DNA of 64,000 nt from Rhodothermales bacterium (GTDB lineage: Bacteria; Bacteroidota; Rhodothermia; Rhodothermales; UBA10348): positions 62,001-126,000 of the forward strand of contig JANJTM010000025.1 of the NCBI GenBank assembly GCA_024711125.1, given 5' to 3'. Shown one piece after another: positions 31,719-46,929 of this stretch; the first letter of the stretch is position 1, and every line of letters starts with the position of its first letter. The position numbers and the translations under genes are program-made. The notes beneath the pieces are model-generated. The model did not search any database. It saw nothing but the letters and a program-made list of their open reading frames with translations, and was not told the origin of the DNA.

Positions 31719-33029
31719 GTGACTCTGAACGTTTCCGGACTGGTACGCCGCCACGGCGGTGCCGTGGGTTCGCTCGTCGACCAGGGACTGGTCAGCCTGT
31801 CGAGTTTCGTCACGATTTTTCTCTTCGCGCGGGACCTCGACCCGGAGCACTTCGGCCTGGTGGCGCTCGTGCTGACCGGCGCCCAGATGATCATGGCGCT
31901 CCAGGGCGCCATGGTCGGGGAAGTGCACAACGTCCTGGTCCCCGTTCGGCCGGAACGGGCGAGAGCCACGCTGACCGGTTCGCTGGCGGTCATGCTCATG
32001 GGGCTGGCGGGGGTATTCGCGGTCGTGGGAATCCTCGTCGGCGCGCTGCTCGCGCTGTTCGCTCCCGCTTCGGAATGGAGTACGTTGCCGTTGGCGCTGG
32101 TGGCGATGGCGGTGCCGTGGATGGTCCAGGACGGTGCGCGCCGGATGCTGTACACCGAGCGTCGCATGCCGCTGATCTTTGCGACCGACCTGGTCGCGTA
32201 CGGATTGATGGCCTTCGGTGCCGTGGCCATGACGGTCGGATGGCTGCCCATGACGTTTTCCTCCGCCGTCCTGGTCGTCTTCCTCTCGACCGGTATCGGC
32301 GCGGTGGTGGCTCTCGTCTCGCTGTGGGTATCGGGGGCTCGTATCGTGCTGGGCGAGGTGGGTCCCGATGCCCGCGAAACCTGGTCTATGGCACGCTACC
32401 TGCTCGGCGGCGAGGCGGTCCGTGCCCTGCAGGGCAACGTCACGACGTGGATCGTGGCGGGAGTCGCCGGTCTTCCGGCGATGGGCGCGTACCGGGCCGC
32501 CGTTCAGCTCGTCAACGCACTCAACCCGCTGCAGCAGGCGGTGTCGCTCTGGTGGCCCTCCCTCTCGGCATCCTATTGGGCCCGGCATGGCGGTGCGGCG
32601 TATCGCCGTTGGTATACCGACCGGGCGGTACGCCTCGTGCTCGGTTTCGCGGCTCTCGCCGGGCTGATCGCCGGGGCATCCGAGCCGCTGCTTGAGCTGG
32701 CGTACGGGGCACGCTACGCGGCCTTTCCCATGACGACGCTCGTCATCGTCTCGGCCCTCGGCCGGGTCTTCGTCGTTGCGCGGAACGTCGCGCACATCGG
32801 GCTGGTGTCGGGACACCTGCCCAAGATCGTCGCCGTCGATTCCATGCTGGAGGCCGTGCTGCTCGCGATCGTGGGTATCCCCCTCATCCTGTGGAACGGA
32901 ACCGTCGGCGCCGCCGTGTTCCACGCGATGGCCCCGCTGGTGCTGGGACTGTACGCCTGCGCCTGGTTCACGAAGCTCGACGGGCCCCGGCCGGTGACCG
33001 GCCTGCGGCTGGCGGCGGTGAAGAGCTAA
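31719..33029 (+). CDS. polysaccharide flippase (Wzx-like, MOP superfamily)
   Basis: 436 residues from GTG 31719. About a dozen transmembrane helices are present (GSLVDQGLVSLSSFVTIFLFA, LVALVLTGAQMIMALQG, LMGLAGVFAVVGILVGALLALF, and others). SLVDQGLVSLSSF at the start is a common Wzx opening. It should move a lipid-linked oligosaccharide across the inner membrane. It is the first gene of an eight-gene plus-strand sugar cluster; the next gene starts 31 nt downstream. The 288 bp before it are the likely promoter region, with no clear boxes seen. Confidence 0.85.
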   Translation: MTLNVSGLVRRHGGAVGSLVDQGLVSLSSFVTIFLFARDLDPEHFGLVALVLTGAQMIMALQGAMVGEVHNVLVPVRPERARATLTGSLAVMLMGLAGVFAVVGILVGALLALFAPASEWSTLPLALVAMAVPWMVQDGARRMLYTERRMPLIFATDLVAYGLMAFGAVAMTVGWLPMTFSSAVLVVFLSTGIGAVVALVSLWVSGARIVLGEVGPDARETWSMARYLLGGEAVRALQGNVTTWIVAGVAGLPAMGAYRAAVQLVNALNPLQQAVSLWWPSLSASYWARHGGAAYRRWYTDRAVRLVLGFAALAGLIAGASEPLLELAYGARYAAFPMTTLVIVSALGRVFVVARNVAHIGLVSGHLPKIVAVDSMLEAVLLAIVGIPLILWNGTVGAAVFHAMAPLVLGLYACAWFTKLDGPRPVTGLRLAAVKS

Positions 33030-33060
33030 AGCGGAGAGCGGTGGGGCCGATCCCGTCGGT

Positions 33061-34053
33061 ATGGATCGCAGCCCTCTCCGGATGCCCGAATACCGTCCCT
33101 TCGTCCGCGTCGTCGTGGTCACCTACAGCGGACGCCGGTTCATCGAGCCGTGCGTCGCGTCGTTGGTGAACACCCCGTACCCCGCGATGCGCGTCCTCGT
33201 GGTGGACAACGGATCCACGTACGACGCTTCCGCGGTGGTTCGTGCGCGTTTCGCGGGCGTCGACGTCGAGGCGCTGTCGACGAACGCGGGGTTCACGGGG
33301 GGAGCCAACGCGGGTATCCGCCGGGCGATGGCCGAGCGTGCCCGGTACATCGCCGTGTTCAACGACGATACCGAGATTCGCGACCCGAGGTGGCTGGACG
33401 AGGCCGTCGATCGACTGGAGGCGGACCGTCGGCTGGCCGCGATCGGATTCCGGATGATCGAGTCGGCGGACGATCCGACGGTGCCGGACGACCCGACCCT
33501 GACGTACACCGACTTTCTCAACGGATTCGCGCTCGTTTACCGGGCCGACGCGCTCGCGAAGGTAGGGCTGTACGACGAAACGTACTTCGTCTACTACGAC
33601 GAGACCGACCTCCAGGCAAGGCTCCTTCGGGCCGGCTATACGCTGGGGGCGCTGGATACACCCATCTTCCACCTGGGCGAAGGGACCACGGGCGCAAGCG
33701 AACGGGGCGCCTTCCTGGAAATGCGCAATTCGATCCGGTACAGCATCAAGCACCGCAGTTCGGTGCGGACGGTCGCCCGGATCCTGCGCATCCTCGACGT
33801 GGCCTGCAGCCCCCGCAGCCTGTTCGCCATTCCCGGAAACCACGGCGATGCCCGCATGCGGGGCGACAGCCGGCTGTGGAGCAATTTCCTGCTTCTCGTC
33901 CGTGCCATCGCGTGGAACGTCGCCCATCTGGCGGAGACGACGCGGACGGCACGCAAGGAGCGTCAAAGGGCACGTGCGGCCGTCGATGCCCCGTACCGAC
34001 CCCCTCGCCACCGAAAGCCCCGCGCACGCAACCGATTCACGAACGTCCGATGA
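33061..34053 (+). CDS. family 2 glycosyltransferase
   Basis: 330 residues. GT-A fold: VRVVVVTYSGRRFIEPCVASL, LVVDNGSTYD, NAGFTGGANAGIRRA, and a DxD-like AVFNDDTEIRDP. A later YDETYFVYYDETDLQARL is typical of rhamnosyltransferase-like WbbL relatives. The C terminus is basic (RKERQRARAAVDAPYRPPRHRKPRARN). It adds a sugar to the growing lipid-linked chain; donor and acceptor are unknown. An internal start at Met8 is possible. The stop overlaps the next start by 4 nt. Confidence 0.9.
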   Translation: MDRSPLRMPEYRPFVRVVVVTYSGRRFIEPCVASLVNTPYPAMRVLVVDNGSTYDASAVVRARFAGVDVEALSTNAGFTGGANAGIRRAMAERARYIAVFNDDTEIRDPRWLDEAVDRLEADRRLAAIGFRMIESADDPTVPDDPTLTYTDFLNGFALVYRADALAKVGLYDETYFVYYDETDLQARLLRAGYTLGALDTPIFHLGEGTTGASERGAFLEMRNSIRYSIKHRSSVRTVARILRILDVACSPRSLFAIPGNHGDARMRGDSRLWSNFLLLVRAIAWNVAHLAETTRTARKERQRARAAVDAPYRPPRHRKPRARNRFTNVR

Positions 34054-35171
34054 TCGCAACCGAATCCGCAACCGCCGCAGACGTCGTGCGGGGCGACCTC
34101 GCACAGATGGCCGCCGCACTCCGCCCGGAACTCGACCTCCTGGCCGGGAAACGGCTGCTGGTGACCGGTGGAGCGGGTTTCCTCGGGTATTACCTGGTAC
34201 AGCTTCCGTTGTACCACAACGAGCACGGCACGCCCGACCGCAGGATCCACGTGGAAGTCTGGGACAACTACCGGCGCGGCGTTCCGGCTTGGCTGGAGGT
34301 GCTGCAGGACCGGCTGACCCTACGCCGTCACGACGTCACCGAGGCGCTGCCCGAAACGATGCCGAGGTTCGACTACGTGGTGCACGCGGCCGGAATCGCC
34401 TCGCCGCCGTTCTACCGGCGGTATCCGCTCGAGACCATCGATGCCAACGTCGGCGGGCTGCGGGCCCTGCTGGATTGGGCCGGAAGGCGCGCCGACTCGG
34501 GAGACCCCATCGACGGGCTGCTCTACTTTTCCACCAGCGAGATCTACGGAAATCCTACGCCCGACGCGATTCCGACCCCGGAAACGTATCGAGGGCTGGT
34601 GAGCTGTACGGGGCCGCGCGCCTGTTACGACGAGTCGAAGCGCATGGGCGAGACGCTCTGCGTGACCTTCGCCGACCGGTATGGCGTGCCGGTCCGGACC
34701 GCGCGTCCGTTCAACAACTACGGCCCGGGCCTGAAGATCAGCGACCGCCGCGTGCTCCCCGACTTCGCGAGGGACGTGTTGGCCGGGCGGGATATCGAGC
34801 TCTTGTCGGACGGCGCTCCGACGCGCACGTTCTGCTACGTGGCCGACGCCGTCGTCGGCTATTTCAAGATTCTCACCGTCGGCCGCTCCGGCGAGGCCTA
34901 CAACATCGGCGTCGAAACGCCGGAGATCTCCATGGCTGACTTCGCGGATCGGGTCGCGGAAACCGGCCGGGAGTTGTTCGGCTATGCCGGGCGGGTTCGG
35001 CGGGGAACGGCGCAGGAAGCCGAATACCTGACCGACAACCCGATGCGGCGGTGTCCGGATATCAGCAAGGCGCGCAGAGAGTTGCGATACGAACCCGAAG
35101 TGACGCTGGAAGACGGCCTGCGCCGGTCGCTGCTCTGGTACGCGGGAAATCCCGTCGCGGAGGACGCATGA
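34050..35171 (+). CDS. NAD-dependent epimerase/dehydratase, UDP-glucuronate decarboxylase-like
   Basis: 373 residues from ATG 34050. The extended SDR signature is complete: LLVTGGAGFLGYYLVQ, catalytic Ser in YFSTSEIYGNP and Tyr-Lys in CYDESKRMGE. GPRACYDESKRMGETL and RPFNNYGPGLKISDRRVLPDF closely resemble UXS-type UDP-glucuronate decarboxylases. The next gene encodes a UDP-sugar 6-dehydrogenase, so a route UDP-glucose to UDP-glucuronate to UDP-xylose is plausible. A role as the 4,6-dehydratase for a CDP-sugar cannot be excluded, because an RfbF-like gene lies downstream. Confidence 0.85.
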   Translation: MIATESATAADVVRGDLAQMAAALRPELDLLAGKRLLVTGGAGFLGYYLVQLPLYHNEHGTPDRRIHVEVWDNYRRGVPAWLEVLQDRLTLRRHDVTEALPETMPRFDYVVHAAGIASPPFYRRYPLETIDANVGGLRALLDWAGRRADSGDPIDGLLYFSTSEIYGNPTPDAIPTPETYRGLVSCTGPRACYDESKRMGETLCVTFADRYGVPVRTARPFNNYGPGLKISDRRVLPDFARDVLAGRDIELLSDGAPTRTFCYVADAVVGYFKILTVGRSGEAYNIGVETPEISMADFADRVAETGRELFGYAGRVRRGTAQEAEYLTDNPMRRCPDISKARRELRYEPEVTLEDGLRRSLLWYAGNPVAEDA

Positions 35172-36502
35172 AACGCATCAGCGTGATCGGTGCGGGGTAC
35201 GTCGGCCTGGTCTCGGGTGCGGGCCTTGCGCACGTCGGACACGACGTGACCTGCGTGGACGTAGATCCGGCTCGCGTGGCCGCGATCGCTTCGGGCCGGC
35301 CTCCGTTCTTCGAGGAAGGGCTGCCCGAACTGCTCGCGGGCGTGCTGGCCGCGGGACGGTTCCGGGCCACGACCGACCTTGCGTCCGCCGTCCGGGAATC
35401 GGATTTCACCATGCTTGCGGTGGGCACCCCGTTCGACGGCAGCCGCATCGACCTGTCGTCCGTCATCGCTGCCGCCGAGGAGGTGGGCCACGCCCTGCGG
35501 ACGAAGACGGGCCGGCACGTGGTGATCGTCAAGAGCACCGTCGTACCGGGAACGACCGATCAGACGGTCCGCACCGTCCTGGAGCGGGCCTCGGGCCGCG
35601 TCGTGGGTCCGGACCTCGGACTCGCCATGAACCCCGAGTTTCTCTCGGAAGGCTCGGCCGTCGAGGACTTCCTGCGGCCGGATCGCATCGTGGTGGGCGC
35701 CGGCGACGAGTCGACCTCGCGCGAGGTCGCGGCGCTCTACGCCGCGTTCGGCGGAGTGCCGGTCCTGGCGGTAAACAACACCACCGCCGAAATGATCAAG
35801 TACGCGTCGAACGCCGTGCTGGCGACCCTCATCTCGTTCGCCAACGAACTGGGCAATCTCTGTCAGACGCTCGGTGGCGTGGACATGGCCGACGTCTCGC
35901 GCGGCGTTTCGCTGGCCGGCTACTTCCGGCCGGAGGGCTCGACCGAACCGGTGCCGATCACGGCGTTCCTGAGGGCCGGGTGCGGATTCGGCGGGTCGTG
36001 CCTGCCCAAGGACGTCCGGGCACTGGTCAGACACGGCCGCGACGCCGGGGAGCCGATGCGCCTGCTTTCGGCCGTGATGGAGGTCAACGACGATCAACCC
36101 GAACGCGTCATCGCGCTGCTCCAACGGCATTTCCGCCCCCTTTCCGGGGTGGAGGTGGCCGTTCTCGGGCTGTCCTTCAAACCCGGAACCGACGATATCC
36201 GCGAATCGCCGGCCGTGCCGGTGCTTCGACGCCTGGCAGACGAGGGTGCGAAAGTGCGGGCCTACGACCCGCTCGCCAGCGGCGCGATGGCCGCGCGGCT
36301 GCCCGGCCTCGGGCTGCGGTTTGCCGATTCGCTCGATGCCGCGATCGACGGCGCACAGGCCGTGGTGGTGCTGACGGCATGGGACGAGTTCCGGCGGCTT
36401 CCGGCGCTGGCCTGCGCGACGGATCGTCCCCCGGTCCTCGTCGACGGACGGCGCCTCATCGACCGTTCGAGCTACGGGACCTACGAGGGCATCGGGTGCT
36501 GA
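35168..36502 (+). CDS. UDP-glucose/GDP-mannose-family 6-dehydrogenase
   Basis: 444 residues from ATG 35168. NAD site SVIGAGYVGLVSGAGLAHVGHDV; TPFDGSRIDLS; VKSTVVPGTTD; MNPEFLSEGSAVEDF; catalytic Cys278 in GCGFGGSCLPKD; LGLSFKPGTDDIRESPA near the C-terminal domain. Two successive NAD-dependent oxidations convert the C6 alcohol of a nucleotide sugar, most likely UDP-glucose, to a carboxylate. It is translationally coupled to the preceding decarboxylase-like gene, which would use its product. Confidence 0.93.
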   Translation: MKRISVIGAGYVGLVSGAGLAHVGHDVTCVDVDPARVAAIASGRPPFFEEGLPELLAGVLAAGRFRATTDLASAVRESDFTMLAVGTPFDGSRIDLSSVIAAAEEVGHALRTKTGRHVVIVKSTVVPGTTDQTVRTVLERASGRVVGPDLGLAMNPEFLSEGSAVEDFLRPDRIVVGAGDESTSREVAALYAAFGGVPVLAVNNTTAEMIKYASNAVLATLISFANELGNLCQTLGGVDMADVSRGVSLAGYFRPEGSTEPVPITAFLRAGCGFGGSCLPKDVRALVRHGRDAGEPMRLLSAVMEVNDDQPERVIALLQRHFRPLSGVEVAVLGLSFKPGTDDIRESPAVPVLRRLADEGAKVRAYDPLASGAMAARLPGLGLRFADSLDAAIDGAQAVVVLTAWDEFRRLPALACATDRPPVLVDGRRLIDRSSYGTYEGIGC

Positions 36503-36503
36503 C

Positions 36504-37079
36504 ATGCGCATGACTCCTCTCTCCATAGACGGCGCCTGGATTCTCGAGCCCGATTGGCGCGAAGACGCGCGCGGCCGCTTCGGACGCCTGTTCTGCGTCG
36601 AGACGCTCGCGGCGAAGGGGATCGATCCCACGATCCGCCAGGTGAACTCGGGCCGGTCGCTGCGCGCGGGCACGGTGCGCGGCATCCACTGGCAGGTCGC
36701 TCCACACGACGAGACGAAGATCGTTCGCTGCACGGCGGGCCGGGCGTTCGACGTCGTGGTGGATCTCCGGCCGCATTCGGCCACGCGCCGGCGATGGACC
36801 TCGGTCGAGCTGTCGCCCGACGACGGGAGCGCGCTCGTGATTCCGCCCGGATGCGGTCACGCGTGGCAGGCGCTCACGGACGGCGCCGAGATACAGTACA
36901 CCACGTCGCGCGACTATGCACCGCTATCGGCCCGGGGGGCTCGCTGGGACGACCCCGCCCTGGCGGTAGCCTGGCCGTTGCCGGTCACCGAACTCTCCGA
37001 CGCAGACCGCGCCTGGCCGCCGATATCGGCGACGGGGCCGCGGATCCCCTTGGACCGAAACCCGGGAATCCCGTCATGA
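36504..37079 (+). CDS. RmlC-like dTDP-4-dehydrorhamnose 3,5-epimerase family protein
   Basis: 191 residues. Cupin fold with the RmlC active-site residues: His in RGIHWQVAP, Lys in DETKIVRC, VVVDLRPHSAT, IPPGCGHAWQAL and Tyr in SRDYAPLSARGARWDDPALAVAWP. Family members epimerise 4-keto sugar nucleotides at C3, C5 or both. No RmlA, RmlB or RmlD partner is in the window, so the substrate is more likely the 4-keto intermediate made within this cluster than dTDP-rhamnose. It begins 1 nt after the dehydrogenase stop. Confidence 0.9.
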   Translation: MRMTPLSIDGAWILEPDWREDARGRFGRLFCVETLAAKGIDPTIRQVNSGRSLRAGTVRGIHWQVAPHDETKIVRCTAGRAFDVVVDLRPHSATRRRWTSVELSPDDGSALVIPPGCGHAWQALTDGAEIQYTTSRDYAPLSARGARWDDPALAVAWPLPVTELSDADRAWPPISATGPRIPLDRNPGIPS

Positions 37080-38440
37080 TCCTGGTGGACAAGGCGCTCG
37101 AACGGCGGGAGGCCGAGGGTAGGCCGATCCGGGTGGCGCTCGTGGGTGCCGGGACCATGGGCGTGGGCGTCGCCGCGCAGCTCCTGACGCCGTTGCCGGG
37201 GCTTCGCCTCGTCGTGGTGGCCAGCCGCGATGCCCGACGCGGTCGCGCGTCGTGGGCCGGAAGAGCGAGGGAGGCCGTCATCGCGACCTCGAGGTCCGCG
37301 CTGGAACGCGCGATTGCGGCCGGGCGACCCGCCGTCGTCGAGGAGGCGGGTATCGCGTGCGAAGCCGACGGGGTCGACGTGGTGCTCGAAGCCACGGGAG
37401 AGCCGGAATACGCGGCGCACCTGGTCCTCCGGGCCATCGCATCGGGCAAACAGGTCGTACTGATGAACGCCGAGCTGGATGCCACGGTCGGGGCCGAGCT
37501 GAAAGCGAGAGCCGATGCCGCCGGCGTGGTCTACACGAACGTGGACGGGGACGAGCCGGGCGTGGCCATGAACCTCGTGCGGTTCGTCCGCTCGATCGGA
37601 TACCGGCCGCTCGCGGCCGGCAACATCAAGGGTTTCATGGACCGGCACCGCACGCCGGATACCCAGCGCGCCTTCGCCGAGCAGGTAGGACAGCGGCCTT
37701 CGATGATCACGTCGTTCGCCGACGGGACGAAGCTCTCGCTGGAAACGGCTCTCGTGGCCAACGCGACCGGCTTCTCGATCCTCGAGCCCGGGATGCGGGG
37801 CCCGGTGTGCGACCACGTGAACGACGCCGTCGGCCACTTCAGCGCCGACGAGCTGCTGGCCGCGGGCGGGGTCGTCGATTACGTACTCGGGGCGAAGCCG
37901 GGGACGGGCGCGTTCGTGATCGGCTGGAACGACGATCCGGTCAAGCGCAACCTCATGCGCTACTTCAAGATGGGGGACGGGCCGCTCTACGTGTTCCATA
38001 CGCCGTTCCACCTTCCGCACCTGGAGGTCGCGATCACCGTGGCCCGCGCCGCGCTCTTCGGCGATGCCGCGGTGGCCCCGCTCGGCGCGCCGACGGTCGA
38101 CGTGGTGGCCTACGCCAAGAGGGACCTGGCGGTCGGCGATCGCCTCGACGGCATCGGAGGCTTCGCCGCCTACGGTGTGAGCCGAACGATGGCCGACAGC
38201 CTTGCGGGACATTTCCTGCCCATGGGTCTCAGCGAAGGGTGCCGGGTGGTGCGGCCGGTACGGGCCGACGAGCCGATTCCGCTCGTGGCGGTAAGACGCC
38301 CGCCCGGCCGCCTCGTCGACGAGCTTCGGGCTGCGCTCGAGCAGCGGTTCTTCGGAAGGCCGACGACCGGTCGCGACCGGAACGCGGTCGCCGGGCGCCC
38401 GGCCGCGATCCCGACCCGAAACGGCGAGGTCACGCCATGA
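37076..38440 (+). CDS. NAD(P)-binding oxidoreductase with SAF domain
   Basis: 454 residues from ATG 37076, overlapping the previous stop by 4 nt. Residues 15-160 form a Rossmann domain like homoserine dehydrogenase (VALVGAGTMGVGVAAQL, VVLEATGEPEYAAHLVLRAIASGKQVVLMNAELDATVG). A catalytic middle part (AGNIKGFMDRHRTPD, MITSFADGTKLSLETALVANATG) is followed by a C-terminal SAF domain (VVAYAKRDLAVGDRLDGIGGFAAYG). Such proteins recur in sugar-nucleotide clusters, but I know of no firmly assigned reaction. Here it probably reduces or rearranges a sugar intermediate. Confidence 0.75.
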   Translation: MILVDKALERREAEGRPIRVALVGAGTMGVGVAAQLLTPLPGLRLVVVASRDARRGRASWAGRAREAVIATSRSALERAIAAGRPAVVEEAGIACEADGVDVVLEATGEPEYAAHLVLRAIASGKQVVLMNAELDATVGAELKARADAAGVVYTNVDGDEPGVAMNLVRFVRSIGYRPLAAGNIKGFMDRHRTPDTQRAFAEQVGQRPSMITSFADGTKLSLETALVANATGFSILEPGMRGPVCDHVNDAVGHFSADELLAAGGVVDYVLGAKPGTGAFVIGWNDDPVKRNLMRYFKMGDGPLYVFHTPFHLPHLEVAITVARAALFGDAAVAPLGAPTVDVVAYAKRDLAVGDRLDGIGGFAAYGVSRTMADSLAGHFLPMGLSEGCRVVRPVRADEPIPLVAVRRPPGRLVDELRAALEQRFFGRPTTGRDRNAVAGRPAAIPTRNGEVTP

Positions 38441-39255
38441 AAGTGGTCCTCTTCTGCGGCGGCATGGGCATGCGGATGCGCGAGTATTCGGAATCCGTGC
38501 CCAAACCCATGGTCCCGGTGGGGCGCCGGCCCATCCTGTGGCACCTGATGCAGTACTACGCGTCGTACGGCCACACGGACTTCGTTCTGTGCACCGGGTG
38601 GAGGGGGGAGGTCATCCGGGAGTATTTCCGATCGATGGAGCGGGTCGACGGACGGCGAACCCGGCTGGCGCGCGAGCACCCGGACTGGCGCGTTGAATTC
38701 GTGGATTCGGGCGTGAACGCCAGCGTGGGCGAGCGGCTGCGTGCCGCCCGGACCCACCTGGAGGGAGAGGACCGCTTCCTCGCGAACTACGCGGACGGCC
38801 TTTCCGACGTACCGATGGACGACGTGATCCGATTCGCGGAGGAAGGAAGGTTCACGGCCGCCTTCGTCGCCGTGCGGCCGTCGCAGTCGTTCCACGTGGT
38901 TTCGGCGGCGCAGGACGGTCGCGTCACGTCGATCCACCCGGTATCGGCCGGTGACCAACGGATCAACGGGGGCTTCTTCGTACTGCGGCGCGCAATCTTC
39001 GACGTGCTGGACGAGGGCGAGGACCTGGTCGAGGCCCCATTCGCCCGGCTCATCGACACGGGAGGTCTCGGCGCGTACCGGTACGACGGCTTCTGGGCCT
39101 GCATGGATACGTACAAGGAGAAACAGCGGCTGGACGAAATCCACGCGTCCGGCAGGATTCCCTGGATGCGGGAGGGACCGCACCGGGTCGCGCACGACCG
39201 CCCGGCGATACGATCGCGAACCCGTCGCCTCCCCGAAGCCGGTGTACCGTCATGA
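38437..39255 (+). CDS. glucose-1-phosphate cytidylyltransferase-like (RfbF family)
   Basis: 272 residues from ATG 38437. Nucleotidyltransferase signature VVLFCGGMGMRMREYSESVPKPMVPVGRRPILWHLMQYY, where RfbF enzymes have the same G-G-x-G-T/M-R and P-K-P pattern. Other matches are TGWRGEVIREYF, FLANYADGLSDVP, HPVSAGDQRINGGFFVL and FWACMDTYKEKQRLDEI. It should make CDP-glucose or a related CDP-sugar. A dedicated CDP-glucose 4,6-dehydratase (RfbG) is not seen nearby. It overlaps both neighbours by 4 nt. Confidence 0.88.
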   Translation: MKVVLFCGGMGMRMREYSESVPKPMVPVGRRPILWHLMQYYASYGHTDFVLCTGWRGEVIREYFRSMERVDGRRTRLAREHPDWRVEFVDSGVNASVGERLRAARTHLEGEDRFLANYADGLSDVPMDDVIRFAEEGRFTAAFVAVRPSQSFHVVSAAQDGRVTSIHPVSAGDQRINGGFFVLRRAIFDVLDEGEDLVEAPFARLIDTGGLGAYRYDGFWACMDTYKEKQRLDEIHASGRIPWMREGPHRVAHDRPAIRSRTRRLPEAGVPS

Positions 39256-39893
39256 TCGCGAGGGGGCTTTCGGACGTCCGATCCGTGCTCTGCCTGGGCG
39301 CCCACGCCGACGACATCGAGATCGGCTGCGGAGCGACGCTGTTGCGCCTGGGTCGGGAGGCTCCCTCCGCGTGCGTCACGTGGGTGGTTTTCGGCGCCGA
39401 CGTCGAGCGGGCGCGTGAAGCCGAAGCCTCGGCCCGTGCGTTCCTCGGGACGGGGTCCCGGCACTCCGTGCGCGTGCTCGGGTTTCCGGACCGGTTCTTT
39501 CCGACCCGCTGGGAGTCGATCAAGGGCGTTTTCGATGCCCTGCGAGCAGAAGTCGAGCCCGACCTCGTGTTGACCCATCGAACGGACGACAGCCACCAGG
39601 ATCACAGGGTTCTTGCCGAACTCACGTGGAATACGTGGCGCAATCACTGGATCCTCGAATACGAGATCCCGAAATACGAAGGCGACCTCGGCCGACCCAA
39701 CGTATACGTTCCGGTCTCGTCGGCCGATGTCGAGCGGAAGATCTCGATTCTTGCCACGGCCTTCCCGTCGCAGGCCGACAAGCCCTGGTTCCGCCCGGAG
39801 ACCTTCCGCGGACTCGCTGCGGTGCGGGGGCTCGAATGCCGCGCGGCCGAGGGGTTCGCCGAGGCGTTCCACGCGCGCAAGACCGTGGTCTGA
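39252..39893 (+). CDS. PIG-L family deacetylase
   Basis: 213 residues from ATG 39252. Zinc-site motif GAHADDIEIGCGAT (the AHxDD motif) and the downstream His in THRTDDSHQDHR are both present. The family removes acetyl groups from N-acetylated sugars, such as GlcNAc-PI or bacillithiol precursors. In this cluster it most likely deacetylates an amino sugar, or acts on a sugar-nucleotide intermediate. It is the last gene of the sugar operon and converges on the serine hydrolase gene 12 nt away. Confidence 0.9.
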   Translation: MIARGLSDVRSVLCLGAHADDIEIGCGATLLRLGREAPSACVTWVVFGADVERAREAEASARAFLGTGSRHSVRVLGFPDRFFPTRWESIKGVFDALRAEVEPDLVLTHRTDDSHQDHRVLAELTWNTWRNHWILEYEIPKYEGDLGRPNVYVPVSSADVERKISILATAFPSQADKPWFRPETFRGLAAVRGLECRAAEGFAEAFHARKTVV

Positions 39894-42945: not shown

Positions 42946-44438
42946 TCGGGTGTAGGGGCAGACCGGTCCTGCGCGCGGCGAAGCGGCAGTTCGGGAATGA
43001 ACAGGGTGACGATCCAGGCGCAGGCGACGAGAATCGATACCCCGAGGAAAATGCGACGCATCGCCAGCGCGAACGCCTCTCGAAGGATCTCGGGCGGCGC
43101 GCTTTCCGGAGCGGCGGCCGCGAGCGTGGCGCCGAGAATCGCTCCCATCGCCGCCGCGCCTACGGCACCCCCGATCTGGCGAAAGAACTGGCTCGCGCTG
43201 GTCGCCTGGCCGATCTCGCGCACGTCGACCGAGTTCTGCACCGCGAGCGGGTAGAGCGGAAGGGTGGGGCCGACTCCGATGCCGCACAACAGCATGTACA
43301 TGACCACGCGGCCGTAGGCGATGTCTGCGGGCATCGAGGCGAGGAGAAGCGCCCCTGCGAACAGCAGCAGGCCGCCGCCGAGCATGAAACGCCGATAGTG
43401 CCCGATCCGCGAGACCCATTGTCCGGCGACGGTGGCGCCGGCCACGACTCCGAGCGAAAGGGGTATCAGGCTGATTCCTGCGCTGGTCGACGAGACACCC
43501 ACGACGTTGACGATGAACAGGGGCAGGAAGACGATGAGCCCGAGGAACGCCGCTCCCAGGAGAAAGAGGGCTCCCACCGAGCGCGAGAAGACCGGGTTCC
43601 GGAACAGATCCAGGTTCAGGATCGGGTTTTCGGAGACGAGGCTGCGCCGGACGAACGTCACGAGTCCGACCACGCTGGCCGCCGCAAGACCGAGCGTCAC
43701 GGGATCGTCCCACGGTATGCTGCGGCGGTCGAGCTGCAGCAGGAGGACGAGCGGAACCAGGCCGACCAACAGCAACGCCGCCGACCCCAGGTCCAGCGGG
43801 CGCCGTGGCCCCAGGGGGGGAAGAAGGGGCATGCGGCGAACGATGAACGACATGGCCGTGAGGCCGATGGGCAGGTTCACGAGGAATACCCACCGCCAGC
43901 CGGCCACGCCCGGCACGAGGGCGTCTCCGTGATCGGCCAGGAGACCGCCCACGAGGGGACCGAGCACGCTAGAAATCCCGAATACGGCCCCGACGAGCCC
44001 CTGGTACCGGCCACGTTCGGCCGGGGGAAAGAGGTCGGCAATGACGATGAACGGCAGCGCGAAGAGACCCGCTCCGCCGATGCCCTGTATCGCGCGGAAC
44101 AGGATCAGCTGGTTCATTCCGTCGCCGACTAGCGGCAGGGGACCGAACAGCCCGGCGATTCCGCAGAGGAACGACCCGACCAGGAAGAGGGATACGGCCC
44201 ACAGCTGCACGGTTCTCCGCGCGATCATGTCGGCCAGTTTTCCGTAGATCGGAACCATCGCCGTGGACGCGAGGAGGTAGACGGTCGCGACCCACGAGTA
44301 CCGCTCCACGCCCGCGAGATCGTCCACGATTCGGGGCAGGGCCGTGGCCACGATGGTCTGATCGAGCGCGCCCAGGAAGAGCGCGATGAGCACTCCCAGC
44401 AGGGTGTACCGGACGGCGGGGTCTCTGAGGCCAGGCAT
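42942..44438 (-). CDS. MFS drug exporter, DHA2 (EmrB/QacA) family
   Basis: 498 residues with about 14 transmembrane helices. DHA2 landmarks: GALDQTIVATALPRIVDDLAG in helix 1, YGKLADMIARRTV in the first loop, and GPLVGGLLADH, motif C of antiporters. Members expel toxic organic compounds in exchange for protons. No adaptor (EmrA) or TolC-like gene is adjacent. The gene is divergent from the secreted propeller protein at 44584. Confidence 0.92.
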   Translation of the reverse strand: MPGLRDPAVRYTLLGVLIALFLGALDQTIVATALPRIVDDLAGVERYSWVATVYLLASTAMVPIYGKLADMIARRTVQLWAVSLFLVGSFLCGIAGLFGPLPLVGDGMNQLILFRAIQGIGGAGLFALPFIVIADLFPPAERGRYQGLVGAVFGISSVLGPLVGGLLADHGDALVPGVAGWRWVFLVNLPIGLTAMSFIVRRMPLLPPLGPRRPLDLGSAALLLVGLVPLVLLLQLDRRSIPWDDPVTLGLAAASVVGLVTFVRRSLVSENPILNLDLFRNPVFSRSVGALFLLGAAFLGLIVFLPLFIVNVVGVSSTSAGISLIPLSLGVVAGATVAGQWVSRIGHYRRFMLGGGLLLFAGALLLASMPADIAYGRVVMYMLLCGIGVGPTLPLYPLAVQNSVDVREIGQATSASQFFRQIGGAVGAAAMGAILGATLAAAAPESAPPEILREAFALAMRRIFLGVSILVACAWIVTLFIPELPLRRAQDRSAPTPE

Positions 44439-44583
44439 CTGCGGTCGGTTCGGAACCGGCGAAACCTACGAACTCGGAAGCCGGGTTCCGTCGGCCGGGT
44501 CCCGGGTCCCGGAATCTCCTGCAACAAACGACGGCCGTCGGAAGTTTGCCGCCGCACCCCCAACCAACCTTCACGGAGATCTC

Positions 44584-46929
44584 ATGGAACGGACGCTTCG
44601 TTGCGCCCTGGCGTTGGCCTTTGGCCTGCTCGCCGCTGACGGCGCCCTCGGACAGGCATTCGGCGGCGCGGTTGCCCTCAGCGGCGACCAGGTACTCGCC
44701 GGTTCGGTTGCCAATACGTCGACACCGGGCGAAATCAAGGTCTTCACACGCCTGGCCGACGGGCAATGGGCCGAGTCGCAATCGTTGTCCGCGTCCGACG
44801 CGGCGAACGGGGATCGGTTCGGACGCGCGCTCGCAGCGCAGGGAGACCTCGCGATCGCAGGCGCCACGGCGGCCGACGGGAATCGCGGCGCGGCGTACGT
44901 TCTCGCGCGCTCGGGTGACGGCGCGTGGCGACAGGTTCAGAAGCTGCAGCCGTCCGACGTGGCAGACGGCGACAATTTCGGTCGATCGGTAGCGCTGGAC
45001 GGCAACCTCCTGCTGGTTTCGACGGCCGGGCGGAACGAAGGACGCGGTGCCGTCGCCGTCTTCACCCGGGAAGATGCGGGCCGATTCGGCTTCAAGGGCT
45101 GGCTGGCGGTCGACACGCTGGCAGCCCAGTCGCTGTTCGGTCTGTCTGTCGCGTTGTCCGATGGGCTTGCGGCCGTTTCGGCACCCGGTTCGGGCGCGGT
45201 CTTCGTTTACACGGTCGGAGAGGACGGCACATGGTCGCCGGAAGGCGCGCTGCGTGAGCCCTCGGGCGCGGAGGGCACCAATTTCGGCGCCGCGCTGGCC
45301 GTCCGTGACGGCCTCGTCTACGTCGGCGCACCGACCTTCGACGAGAATCGCGGCGCCGTCCAGGTGTTCGGGCGGACTCCGGAAGGGTGGCAGCCGGTCG
45401 GCCGTCTCCAGCCCTTCGACGGGGAGATGGCCGCCTTCGGCGCCCATCTTGCGTTCGTCGGCGACGAACTCTGGGTCACCGGGGCCATCGCCGCCGGGTT
45501 CAGCGGAGGGGTCTACCGCTACCTTCGGGATGCGGACGGCACGCCCACCGGCGTGCTGCGCTTCGCGTCGGCGCAGTCTGCCGGGGGACGGCAGTTCGGA
45601 ATGGCGGTGGCGGGTGTGGACGGGCGCGTCGTCGCCGGGGCCCCGGGGGATGCGCGAGGTATCGGCGCCGTGGAGATCTACGAGGGCAATGGGCACGGCC
45701 TCGAGCAGGTCGCGCTGTTCGAGGGGGAAGGGCCCAAGCGTCGGGAGTCGATCACGGGAGCGAAGACCCGCTGCACCGACGGCAAGGCCGGCGACTTCTC
45801 GTGCAAGGGCTACGACATGCTCTCTTTCGTCTCGATCGCGGATCTCGGGGGGGGGCGCTCCACGAACCTCAACGACATCTGGGGCTGGACCGACCCCGAA
45901 ACCGGACGGGAATGGGCCCTCGTGGGCCGCACCGACGGCACATCGTTCGTCGACGTGACCGACCCGTCGAATCCGTTCGTGGCGGGTGATCTGCCGCTGA
46001 CACCGGGCGCGCAGCCGGCGGCATGGCGGGACATCAAGGTGTACAAGGATCACGCGTTCATCGTCTCGGACGGCGCGGGTCAGCACGGAATGCAGGTGTT
46101 CGACCTGCGCAGGCTCCGTGACGTCCGGCAGGGGCGGGTGCAGTTCGAACCCACGGCCCTCTACACGCGCATCGCGAGCGCCCACAACGTCGTGATCAAC
46201 GAGGAAACGGGTTTCGCGTACACCGTCGGTAACTCGATGGGCGGCGAGACCTGCGGCGGAGGATACCATATCATCGACGTTCGCGACCCCGCCAACCCGA
46301 CGATGGCCGGCTGCTGGGGCCACGCCGGGACCGGAAACGCGGGCACGGGATATTCGCACGACGCGCAGTGCGTGATCTACCGCGGCCCCGATCCCGATCA
46401 CCAGGGCAAGGAAATCTGCCTCGGCTCGAACGAAACCGCGATCTCGATCGCCGACCTTACCGACAAGGCCAACCCGAAGCCCATCGCCGTCGCCCAGTAC
46501 CCGAACGTAGCGTATACGCACCAGGGTTGGCTGACCGAGGATCAACGGTACTTCTACGTCAACGACGAGTTGGACGAGTCGAGCGGGAAGACCGACCGGA
46601 CGCGGACCCTCGTGTGGGACGTGACCGACCTCGACGAGCCCGAACTGGTGAAGGAATTCAAGGGATCGACGCCGGCCATCGACCACAATCTCTACGTCAA
46701 GGGAGACCTGATGTACCAGTCGAACTATTCGGCCGGTCTGCGCGTGATCGACATTTCCGATCCCGCCAATCCGGTCGAAGTGGGCTGGTTCGACGTCAAC
46801 CCGCTGGGTGACGCCACGGAGTTCACCGGCTCCTGGAGCAACTATCCCTATTTCGGCAGCGGAACGATCATCGTCACCTCCATCGAGCTTGGCCTGTTCG
46901 TGGTGAAGAAGCAGGACCTCGATATCTGA
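44584..46929 (+). CDS. secreted FG-GAP propeller plus LVIVD/choice-of-anchor-B protein
   Basis: 781 residues from ATG 44584, with CGGAG 9 nt upstream. Signal peptide MERTLRCALALAFGLLAADGALGQ. Residues 25-390 are FG-GAP-like blades (AFGGAVALSGDQVLAGS, RFGRALAAQGDLAIAGA, NFGRSVALDGNLLLVS). Residues 400-781 are the choice-of-anchor-B module with LVIVD-type repeats: DLGGGRSTNLNDIWGWTDPET, FVDVTDPSNPFVAG, YHIIDVRDPANPTMAGC, RVIDISDPANPVEVGWFD. In other bacteria this module is followed by various surface anchors; here it ends with FVVKKQDLDI and no T9SS or lipid anchor. It is probably released. Confidence 0.88.
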   Translation: MERTLRCALALAFGLLAADGALGQAFGGAVALSGDQVLAGSVANTSTPGEIKVFTRLADGQWAESQSLSASDAANGDRFGRALAAQGDLAIAGATAADGNRGAAYVLARSGDGAWRQVQKLQPSDVADGDNFGRSVALDGNLLLVSTAGRNEGRGAVAVFTREDAGRFGFKGWLAVDTLAAQSLFGLSVALSDGLAAVSAPGSGAVFVYTVGEDGTWSPEGALREPSGAEGTNFGAALAVRDGLVYVGAPTFDENRGAVQVFGRTPEGWQPVGRLQPFDGEMAAFGAHLAFVGDELWVTGAIAAGFSGGVYRYLRDADGTPTGVLRFASAQSAGGRQFGMAVAGVDGRVVAGAPGDARGIGAVEIYEGNGHGLEQVALFEGEGPKRRESITGAKTRCTDGKAGDFSCKGYDMLSFVSIADLGGGRSTNLNDIWGWTDPETGREWALVGRTDGTSFVDVTDPSNPFVAGDLPLTPGAQPAAWRDIKVYKDHAFIVSDGAGQHGMQVFDLRRLRDVRQGRVQFEPTALYTRIASAHNVVINEETGFAYTVGNSMGGETCGGGYHIIDVRDPANPTMAGCWGHAGTGNAGTGYSHDAQCVIYRGPDPDHQGKEICLGSNETAISIADLTDKANPKPIAVAQYPNVAYTHQGWLTEDQRYFYVNDELDESSGKTDRTRTLVWDVTDLDEPELVKEFKGSTPAIDHNLYVKGDLMYQSNYSAGLRVIDISDPANPVEVGWFDVNPLGDATEFTGSWSNYPYFGSGTIIVTSIELGLFVVKKQDLDI

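Follow-up and report, generated by a model that had tools for sequence, protein, structure and literature searches.

The window, a stretch of 64,000 nucleotides from a Rhodothermales bacterium, carries an operon of eight genes, all on the plus strand, at 31719-39893. Four-base overlaps occur at five of the seven gene junctions, one junction has a 1-base gap and the flippase/GT2 junction has a 31-base gap. A sequence-only reading had described a surface-sugar cluster with an odd enzyme set here, and the genes that it named and their coordinates were all confirmed.

The first gene (31719..33029, start codon GTG) encodes a Wzx-like flippase (PF01943 Polysacc_synt, 30 bits against a cut-off of 28.2), which likely exports the lipid-linked glycan. 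It is followed by a GT2 glycosyltransferase (33061..34053; PF00535, E 2.1e-17) that matched nine NCBIfam models and reached the cut-off of none. The third gene (34050..35171) encodes a UXS-like SDR with Epimerase/GDP_Man_Dehyd Pfam matches and hits to the PDB UXS entries 2b69/4gll (E ~4e-46). An NDP-glucose 6-dehydrogenase (UGD) is encoded at 35168..36502 (PF03721/00984/03720; TIGR03026 411.6 bits, cut-off 189.8). The fifth gene (36504..37079) encodes an RmlC-like 4-keto-sugar 3(,5)-epimerase (PF00908, E 4.3e-51, 173.4 bits) and the sixth (37076..38440) a DLO1-type oxidoreductase, here also called the SAF protein, with NAD_binding_3, DRL_cat and SAF domains (PF21135, E 5e-48). An RfbF-like sugar-1-phosphate nucleotidyltransferase of subtype II (38437..39255; PF00483; PDB 1tzf, E 9.4e-43) and a PIG-L/LmbE hydrolase (39252..39893; PF02585, E 1.8e-16, 61.3 bits against a cut-off of 28.2), a probable de-N-acetylase, complete the operon.

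No RfbG, RmlB or RmlD is present among the eight genes, as the sequence-only reading had observed. It had allowed that such genes elsewhere in the genome might complete a known pathway. RmlB and RmlD were found elsewhere, but alongside an RmlA and an RmlC of their own, all four above the NCBI cut-offs (that RmlC scored 214.7 with TIGR01221). The operon is not accounted for by this complete RmlABCD set, which lies apart from it. RfbG was not found: compared with an RfbG protein, the top-scoring SDR loci of the genome were 24-27% identical, at 55 bits or less. A further UGD gene is also present in the genome, as is an SDR with 34% identity to the UXS-like one.

Families and residues of the enzymes

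In the window DLO1 protein PF03447, PF21135 and PF08666 all exceeded their cut-offs, giving the NAD-binding, DRL_cat and SAF make-up common to DXR-II (DRL) and DLO1. The best PDB match was 3upl (E 2.5e-72, 247.6 bits), with 3upy also matched. By sequence the protein is a homologue of DXR-II (1-deoxyxylulose-5-phosphate reductoisomerase-like) and not of RmlD. At DXR-II position 229 Leu, Ile or Val marks DLO1, Thr marks DXR-II and Pro, Ser or Ala marks DLO2 (PMC3847144). The window has Leu220 in this column, and Thr was found there in the NGR234 homologue (L179), which was taken as the listed DXR-II. DXR-II anchors DXP through Lys191, Lys193 and Thr229 (PMC3847144). The corresponding window residues are Asn183, Lys185 and Leu220, so a single anchor is kept and the protein does not have the identity of a typical DXR-II. 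Among the 88 DLO1 homologues of the survey below the K191 column is Asn in 87 and the T229 column is Ile, Leu or Val in all 88. Lys185 and Lys219, which DXR-II has too, are kept in 88/88. One would expect such a pattern if DLO1 carried out a related reaction with a different substrate. The genome carries DXR-I (471.8 bits, cut-off 315.7) and four DLOs tested earlier failed to complement a DXR-defective mutant (PMC3847144), both of which speak against DLO1 standing in for DXR in this genome. Unlike DXR-II, it is partnered by sugar-nucleotide enzymes.

The best PDB matches of the UXS-like SDR were UDP-glucuronate decarboxylases (E 4.3e-46). UDP-apiose/UDP-xylose synthase (UAXS, 6h0p) matched at 52.4 bits, compared to 161 bits for UXS. 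Alignment to 2b69 placed the Ser-Glu of TSE, the YxxxK and the Arg of TRxF, residues with roles in UXS, in the window protein. The TSE, GPRACYxxxK and TRxF positions were kept in 20/20 aligned SDR homologues from UGD+UXS loci. The window SDR differs from UAXS in having Ser before the catalytic Glu, where UAXS has Cys. The catalytic-type Cys of UGD was present in 22/22 aligned homologues.

The window RmlC-like protein has His62 and Tyr132 at the catalytic positions and belongs to the PF00908 epimerases, but it scored 130.7 with TIGR01221, below the RmlC cut-off of 155.75. The catalytic His and Tyr were present in 84/84 aligned RmlC homologues, and in 20/20 of those aligned from the 21 UGD+UXS loci. 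Co-adaptation of RmlC active-site residues to the 4-keto source had no clean support and the exceptions track lineage. The RfbF-like protein scored 189.3 with TIGR02623, below the RfbF cut-off of 300.25; three further subtype-II members scored 208-225. Subtype II is tied to PIG-L. The two subtype-I members tested from UGD+UXS loci (L057 and L081) scored 438 and 422 (cut-off 300) with no RfbG within 9 kb, which argues that CDP-glucose feeds the UGD+UXS branch. In PIG-L the HxDD and HxxDH ligand positions were present in 11/11 aligned homologues.

DLO1 loci in other genomes

Eighty-eight loci were selected solely by similarity to the SAF protein. RmlC lay within 11 kb of DLO1 in 85/88 and an RfbF-like gene in 76/88. 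The SAF protein, RmlC and the RfbF-like gene are a conserved module. The sequence-only reading had placed the SAF protein outside any standard route, a view that the survey does not support, as the protein is a DXR-II homologue and belongs to this module. It had also suggested a survey of clusters keeping the epimerase, the SAF protein, RfbF and PIG-L together; the first three recur as above, and PIG-L was found in 12 loci.

The 4-keto source was a GalE-like SDR in 39 loci, RfbG in 19 and UGD with a UXS-like SDR in 21 (window included), and none was found in nine. One of the three was thus present in 79/88 loci, and two kinds within 9 kb in 0/88. These three interchangeable 4-keto modules beside RmlC and DLO1 are observed directly, as are gene content, families and residue conservation. 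The earlier suggestion that the cupin epimerase receives a 4-keto intermediate from the UXS-like enzyme is in line with this interchange. On the best DLO1 tree parsimony gave at least eight source switches, although the strongly supported branches by themselves require only 3 to 5 per kind. The best PDB match of the GalE-like SDR was 6vo6, which we take to be Cj1427, and a gene for L-2-hydroxyglutarate oxidase (598/299 bits) was present in 24/39 GalE-like SDR loci compared to 0/49 others. The GalE-like SDR is therefore probably a C4 dehydrogenase.

The order SDR-UGD-RmlC-DLO1 was retained in 19/21 UGD+UXS loci, sometimes with a single nucleotidyltransferase gene inserted between RmlC and DLO1; the position of that gene varies from locus to locus. 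Seven loci in six phyla, the window included, have the exact window gene order. Recurrence in many distant genomes means that the gene set is not due to chance. It is not unique to the window and is widespread. RmlC and DLO1 formed a lone pair in two loci (L084 and L148).

Proposed pathway and alternatives

Because UGD+UXS fills the slot taken elsewhere by RfbG or the GalE-like SDR, the probable role of the UXS-like SDR is to supply RmlC and the SAF protein with a 4-keto pentose. UDP-xylose, to which the sequence-only reading had pointed, is unlikely as the end product, since a second UGD and a similar SDR are in the genome and RmlC and the SAF protein would have no job.

We tentatively propose, with slightly less than even confidence, that the operon serves to build and export a glycan containing a branched sugar with a contracted ring, of the apiose/streptose type. 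The reactions, nucleotide, stereochemistry and any PIG-L role in this route are as we infer them. The RfbF-like enzyme would activate glucose-1-phosphate, with CDP the most likely carrier and UDP possible. UGD would oxidise C6 to give glucuronic acid. The UXS-like SDR would oxidise C4 of NDP-glucuronic acid and remove C6 as CO2, leaving a 4-keto pentose, and the RmlC-like enzyme would epimerise next to the ketone. DLO1 would then act as DXR does on DXP, by C2-C3 retro-aldol cleavage, C2-C4 re-aldol and NAD(P)H reduction of the aldehyde. The product would be an NDP-3-C-(hydroxymethyl)tetrofuranose, of apiose type, for use by the GT2 and the flippase.

UAXS likewise takes NDP-glucuronic acid through C4 oxidation, decarboxylation and a C2-C3 retro-aldol contraction with reduction, and the authors of that mechanism foresee similar chemistry for streptose (PMC5324594). 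All of these steps are in one SDR in UAXS, whereas the window would divide them between the UXS-like SDR, an RmlC-like step and an unrelated DXR-II-type protein. The functional likeness to UAXS hinges on DLO1.

Several points on the operon and its relatives count against this proposal. In the UXS branch RmlC would have little work if C2-C3 is cleaved, as the pentose has no C5 stereocentre and cleavage destroys the geometry at C3, whereas the conserved catalytic His and Tyr suggest that RmlC is active. PIG-L is left unexplained by the route. To our knowledge no branched furanose has been reported in the HEP polysaccharide of Anabaena. The HEP island, which makes this polysaccharide, was the sole DLO1 cluster found with genetic data (PMC4390870). 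Its genes alr2825-alr2831 include a Glc-1-P cytidylyltransferase, an epimerase/dehydratase, rfbC and an NAD(P) oxidoreductase (PMC4390870). In L128 these have the same order and equal numbers of genes between them, for which reason alr2831 was taken as DLO1. Unlike the window, L128 belongs to the GalE-like SDR branch and no UGD+UXS pair or PIG-L was seen near its DLO1.

DLO1 could instead be a plain C4-ketoreductase in place of RmlD, which we consider unlikely though worth serious weight. CDP- (or UDP-) L-sugars would then result, namely a 6-deoxy-L-hexose in RfbG loci, an L-hexose where the GalE-like SDR is the source and, for the window, a pentopyranose of L-lyxose-like or ribose-like form. 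RmlC would have a role in all three branches, and the NAD-binding domain of DLO1 is common to homoserine dehydrogenases, which only reduce. Against this, the closest solved DLO1 relative is a reductoisomerase, and the sugar-nucleotide C4-reductases known to us are SDRs. The product of RfbG loci would be L-rhamnose-like, which bacteria usually make in dTDP form and for which the window genome already has its RmlABCD set. In favour of the plain reductase, the sequence of CDP-4-keto-6-deoxyglucose, RmlC-like 3,5-epimerase and C4-reductase is proven in the CDP-6-deoxy-L-altrose pathway of C. jejuni HS:41 (PMC12369002). That pathway differs from the window in its 4,6-dehydratase front end, in a C4-reductase that the source does not describe as a SAF protein and in a flavin mutase that follows (PMC12369002).

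It is improbable that two routes share the operon, with UGD and the UXS-like SDR making UDP-xylose and the RfbF-like enzyme, RmlC, DLO1 and PIG-L acting on a different sugar, made from a 4-keto precursor that other loci of the genome provide. The wholly retained UXS residues are in its favour, and the lone RmlC-DLO1 pairs imply that a precursor can be supplied from elsewhere. However, UGD+UXS never lay within 9 kb of RfbG or the GalE-like SDR and was directly upstream of RmlC-DLO1 in 19/21 loci; the second UGD, the similar SDR and the failure to find RfbG among the genome's SDR loci also speak against it. Very improbable is a DLO1 that acts on a sugar phosphate like DXR-II, with the RfbF-like enzyme then making a CDP-branched polyol, much as IspD follows DXR: its homology and the nucleotidyltransferase gene directly after it would suit this, but two of three DXP anchors are changed, the substrates of RmlC and RfbG are nucleotide sugars and the place of the nucleotidyltransferase gene is not constant between loci.

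Relation to streptose and DHHS

The ring-contraction proposal can be extended, more speculatively still, to RmlC-linked DLO1 proteins as a group. They may be ring-contractases of nucleotide sugars, performing a DXR-type step on three 4-keto substrates that differ only at C6 (CH3 from RfbG, CH2OH from the C4 dehydrogenase, H from UGD+UXS) and giving dihydrostreptose-, dihydrohydroxystreptose- and apiose-type sugars in many phyla. The window would be the apiose-type case, with two proteins of different make-up doing the work of plant UDP-apiose synthase. Bacterial apiose-type chemistry would then have been reached with an isoprenoid-type reductoisomerase and sugar-nucleotide enzymes.

The two named producers of such sugars are Coxiella burnetii, for dihydrohydroxystreptose (DHHS), and Streptomyces griseus, for streptose, each branched furanose being described as the product of a single organism (PMC9095892). 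Their pathways resemble the window in having a nucleotidyltransferase, a 4-keto sugar and an RmlC-type epimerase before ring contraction, but they are proposed as dTDP-linked hexoses (PMC9095892), whereas the window sugar is probably CDP-linked and its UGD+UXS front end would give a C5 chain. This front end also sets the operon apart from these pathways, in which an RmlB-like enzyme or a C4 oxidase would provide a 4-keto hexose. The rearrangement step is described as still lacking an assigned enzyme, and an RmlD paralogue is preferred as the ring-contracting enzyme (PMC9095892), which counts against DLO1. The proposal gives the DLO1 family a testable function and that literature a candidate for ring contraction. 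If it is true, it points to the missing step in branched-sugar synthesis, a relative of an isoprenoid-pathway enzyme rearranges the carbon skeleton and branched furanoses occur commonly on the surfaces of cyanobacteria, Rhodothermota, Planctomycetota and other groups. By our own count, made by strain for DLO1 as a whole and not for its RmlC-linked subgroup, C. burnetii and S. griseus each figure in the list of 36 DLO1 strains that PMC3847144 gives for 1,489 proteomes. With relatedness ignored, the naive chance of both producers being on this list is ~6e-4.

A DLO1-type protein within a sugar operon

The sugar genes of the window lie on the plus strand at 31719-39893 in the order flippase, GT2, UXS-like SDR, UGD, RmlC-like, SAF protein, RfbF-like and PIG-L. 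The junctions comprise five four-base overlaps, one gap of a single base and one gap of 31 bases, and because of these overlaps and short gaps the eight genes were read as one operon. A scan for promoters and terminators gave nothing exceeding chance. RfbF and RmlC are loose names here, with scores of 189 against a family cut-off of 300 and 131 against 156, respectively.

The SAF protein (37076-38440) contains a DRL_cat domain. Among solved structures it matches Brucella DXR-II best (3upl, E 2.5e-72; profile E 3.3e-101). The DRL_cat family has been split three ways into DXR-II, DLO1 and DLO2, of which the last two are given as without known function in the available parts of PMC3847144. The window protein was classed as DLO1 because its Leu220 agrees with the position-229 rule in those parts of the paper. 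Position 229 is Ile, Leu or Val in all 88 homologues. The column of DXR-II Lys191 holds Asn in 87 of 88, and that of Lys193 holds Lys in all 88. Asp189 and Arg192 are invariant across the 88 homologues; among 17 other family members compared, Arg192 was found in none and Asp189 in four. No description of DLO1 as a sugar-nucleotide enzyme, or of clusters of this kind, was found in searches of an open-access library.

Other DRL_cat genes were seen in different settings. Loci L060-L063, from genomes of the same order, carry a second subgroup with the same position-229 residues as DLO1. RmlC or RfbF-like neighbors were looked for in these loci and none were found. In L060 and L062, the pair whose surroundings were inspected, the second-subgroup gene adjoins glycosyltransferase genes. 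Two plasmid genes have DXR-II-type residues. One (L180, 5962-12135) has as neighbors genes for sugar transporters and for a TPP-dependent dehydrogenase complex, lpdA among them; the other (L182, 4767-7987) has an FGGY kinase, an MFS transporter and lpdA. These two neighborhoods suggest that the family is also put to the catabolism of branched polyols.

Conserved partners and the supply of 4-keto sugar

The search profile was built from the window DLO1 and five relatives. The 88 loci, picked by DLO1 alone, were the 80 best named of at least 549 relatives, seven from relatives, and the window; 87 are distinct, L055 and L104 being the same locus. Taking the 80 best leans the sample to close relatives, and its phyla are uneven with many cyanobacteria. 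In this sample of the 80 best named relatives and eight further loci, RmlC lay within 11 kb of DLO1 in 85/88 loci and an RfbF-like gene in 76/88. The possible 4-keto source within 9 kb was a GalE-like SDR in 39 loci, RfbG in 19 and UGD with a UXS-like SDR in 21, with none in nine. No locus held two sources within 9 kb; an 11 kb limit gives one two-module locus, L080, where a GalE-like SDR on the opposite strand and more than 9 kb off adjoins a second RfbF-like gene. Six source-less loci (L054, L090, L094, L096, L105 and L129) come from contigs only 3 to 11 kb long, and the source may therefore sit past the contig end. L084, L092 and L148 have RmlC-DLO1 or RfbF-RmlC-DLO1 with no recognized source nearby. 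Both the conserved module and the 4-keto supply are well supported. The order SDR-UGD-RmlC-DLO1-CYT-PIGL, where CYT is the RfbF-like nucleotidyltransferase, was found in seven of 12 PIG-L loci including the window.

Some arrangements were unusual. In L084 (9416-11290) and L148 (9455-11314) RmlC and DLO1 form a lone two-gene unit amid unrelated genes, which suggests that the two make up the core of the module. On a Persicobacter plasmid (L156, 7813-11263) RfbG, two RmlC-like genes and DLO1 are consecutive.

RfbG is a 4-keto source by definition, and the RfbG of one locus tested scored 506.8 against the TIGR02622 cut-off of 278.45. The best solved relative of the GalE-like SDR is 6vo6, which we take to be Cj1427, a C4 dehydrogenase whose NADH is presumably recycled with alpha-ketoglutarate to give L-2-hydroxyglutarate. 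An L-2-hydroxyglutarate oxidase gene was present in 24/39 GalE-like loci compared to 0/49 others, in keeping with a C4 dehydrogenase of the Cj1427 type. UXS residues are kept in 20/20 aligned homologues of the UXS-like SDR from UGD + UXS loci, the SDR of L076 being on the opposite strand and not aligned. Two RfbF-like genes tested from UGD + UXS loci with no RfbG nearby scored above the RfbF cut-off (438 and 422 bits). This suggests that the UGD + UXS branch starts from CDP-glucose. The nucleotide of the window is less sure because its CYT, of subtype II (at least 45% identity to the window protein, a limit set after seeing the data), scores under the cut-off, as do three other subtype II proteins tested. 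PIG-L was present in 11/11 subtype II loci compared to 1/77 others (Fisher 4e-13, with the subtype defined post hoc and the loci related).

The DLO1 tree, a rapid reconstruction of 103 rows from which L054 and L070 were omitted, places the window on a long branch. Parsimony on this tree required at least eight switches among the three sources, and strongly supported branches alone forced three to five switches per source kind. The clade that holds the window (SH-aLRT 99) has 12 rows: nine UGD + UXS, one RfbG, one GalE-like and one source-less. It includes rows from Planctomycetota, Myxococcota, Chloroflexota, Acidobacteriota, Nitrospirota, Krumholzibacteriota and an archaeon.

RmlC alignment columns were compared with the source and matched to residues of Coxiella CBU1838. 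Column 117, taken by assumption as Met123, is Phe in 34/39 GalE-like, 17/18 RfbG and 11/20 UGD + UXS loci. Column 50 is Ser52 by numbering, a residue that contacts ligand in the sugar site according to the available text of PMC9095892. It is Ser in 51/57 GalE-like and RfbG loci compared to 1/20 UGD + UXS loci (Fisher 6e-12, the column being chosen after scanning 191). The exceptions track lineage: L057 (UGD + UXS) has Ser like its Rhodothermales kin, and the RfbG locus L100 has Gly and the GalE-like locus L110 has Ala, as in the PIG-L clade. Supported branches of the RmlC tree leave only three independent pairs for comparing source and residue. Column 50 was not counted as support for co-adaptation because the exceptions follow lineage, the pairs are too few and the column is post hoc.

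In Anabaena PCC 7120 the heterocyst envelope polysaccharide is made via the HEP island, alr2825-alr2841, and the accessible text of PMC4390870 lists alr2825 as a Glc-1-P cytidylyltransferase, alr2827 as an epimerase/dehydratase, alr2830 as rfbC and alr2831 as an NAD(P) oxidoreductase. These four genes have the order and spacing seen in L128. By this likeness the GalE-like DLO1 module very probably serves a surface polysaccharide.

Ring contraction and C4 reduction

In the DXR reaction a ketone stands beside a carbinol; a retro-aldol and then an aldol step displace one carbon from the chain, and reduction of the aldehyde so formed follows. A 4-keto sugar presents this same layout at C4, C3 and C2. 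For UDP-apiose synthase the retro-aldol route is backed by isotope work, and its authors propose the same for streptose (PMC5324594, in the part available). The DLO1 step may be a ring contraction of this kind or a plain C4 reduction; the sequence fits both.

Ring contraction is tentatively preferred. That the pentose branch has an RmlC at all mildly favors plain C4 reduction. Contraction is favored by the homology of DLO1 to a reductoisomerase, by its changed anchoring positions and by the redundancy that a second L-rhamnose-like route would bring. A further point for contraction is that both known branched-sugar producers, Coxiella burnetii and Streptomyces griseus, appear in the DLO1 list of PMC3847144 (naive chance 5.8e-4, 36 strains, the RmlC-linked subgroup being one of at least two with DLO1 position-229 residues, as L060-L063 illustrate). 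For dihydrohydroxystreptose in Coxiella, the available text of PMC9095892 has the rearrangement yet to be assigned and the enzymes of the two remaining steps still to identify; its authors prefer an RmlD paralogue as the rearranging enzyme. The Coxiella DLO1, NP_820815, is not named in the accessible portions of the literature on the cbu1831-1838 region. CBU1839 is an aldehyde dehydrogenase. StrU, which we assume to be the S. griseus DLO1, was not used as evidence, and nothing useful was found in the open-access literature on StrU, StrQ and StrX.

The rest of the genome

The genome of the window, from a Rhodothermales bacterium, is 3.79 Mb in 81 contigs. A complete dTDP-rhamnose set is encoded elsewhere in it (score/cut-off: RmlA 492.7/360.65, RmlB 437.3/365.1, RmlC 214.7/155.75, RmlD 238.9/224.05). 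RfbG was looked for in this genome and not found. Completion of the cluster by RmlABCD or RfbG from elsewhere in the genome, the outcome that could have overturned the sequence-only reading, was rejected. PF21135 had the SAF protein as its sole match in the genome. DLO1 as the DXR of the genome was also rejected, DXR-I being present (471.8/315.7).

A second UGD was found, along with another SDR of 34% identity to the UXS-like SDR of the window. A second glycan locus of this genome (L178, 3329-8891) comprises another UXS-like SDR (34% identity to that of the window), an ORF of 824 aa and a flippase that by eye is similar to the window flippase at its N-terminus. At 44386-46929 the window has an 847-aa ORF with repeated segments, by eye like secreted choice-of-anchor-type proteins. 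The DLO1 of G083, a genome of the same order, is identical to that of Salinivenus iranica (Rhodothermota).
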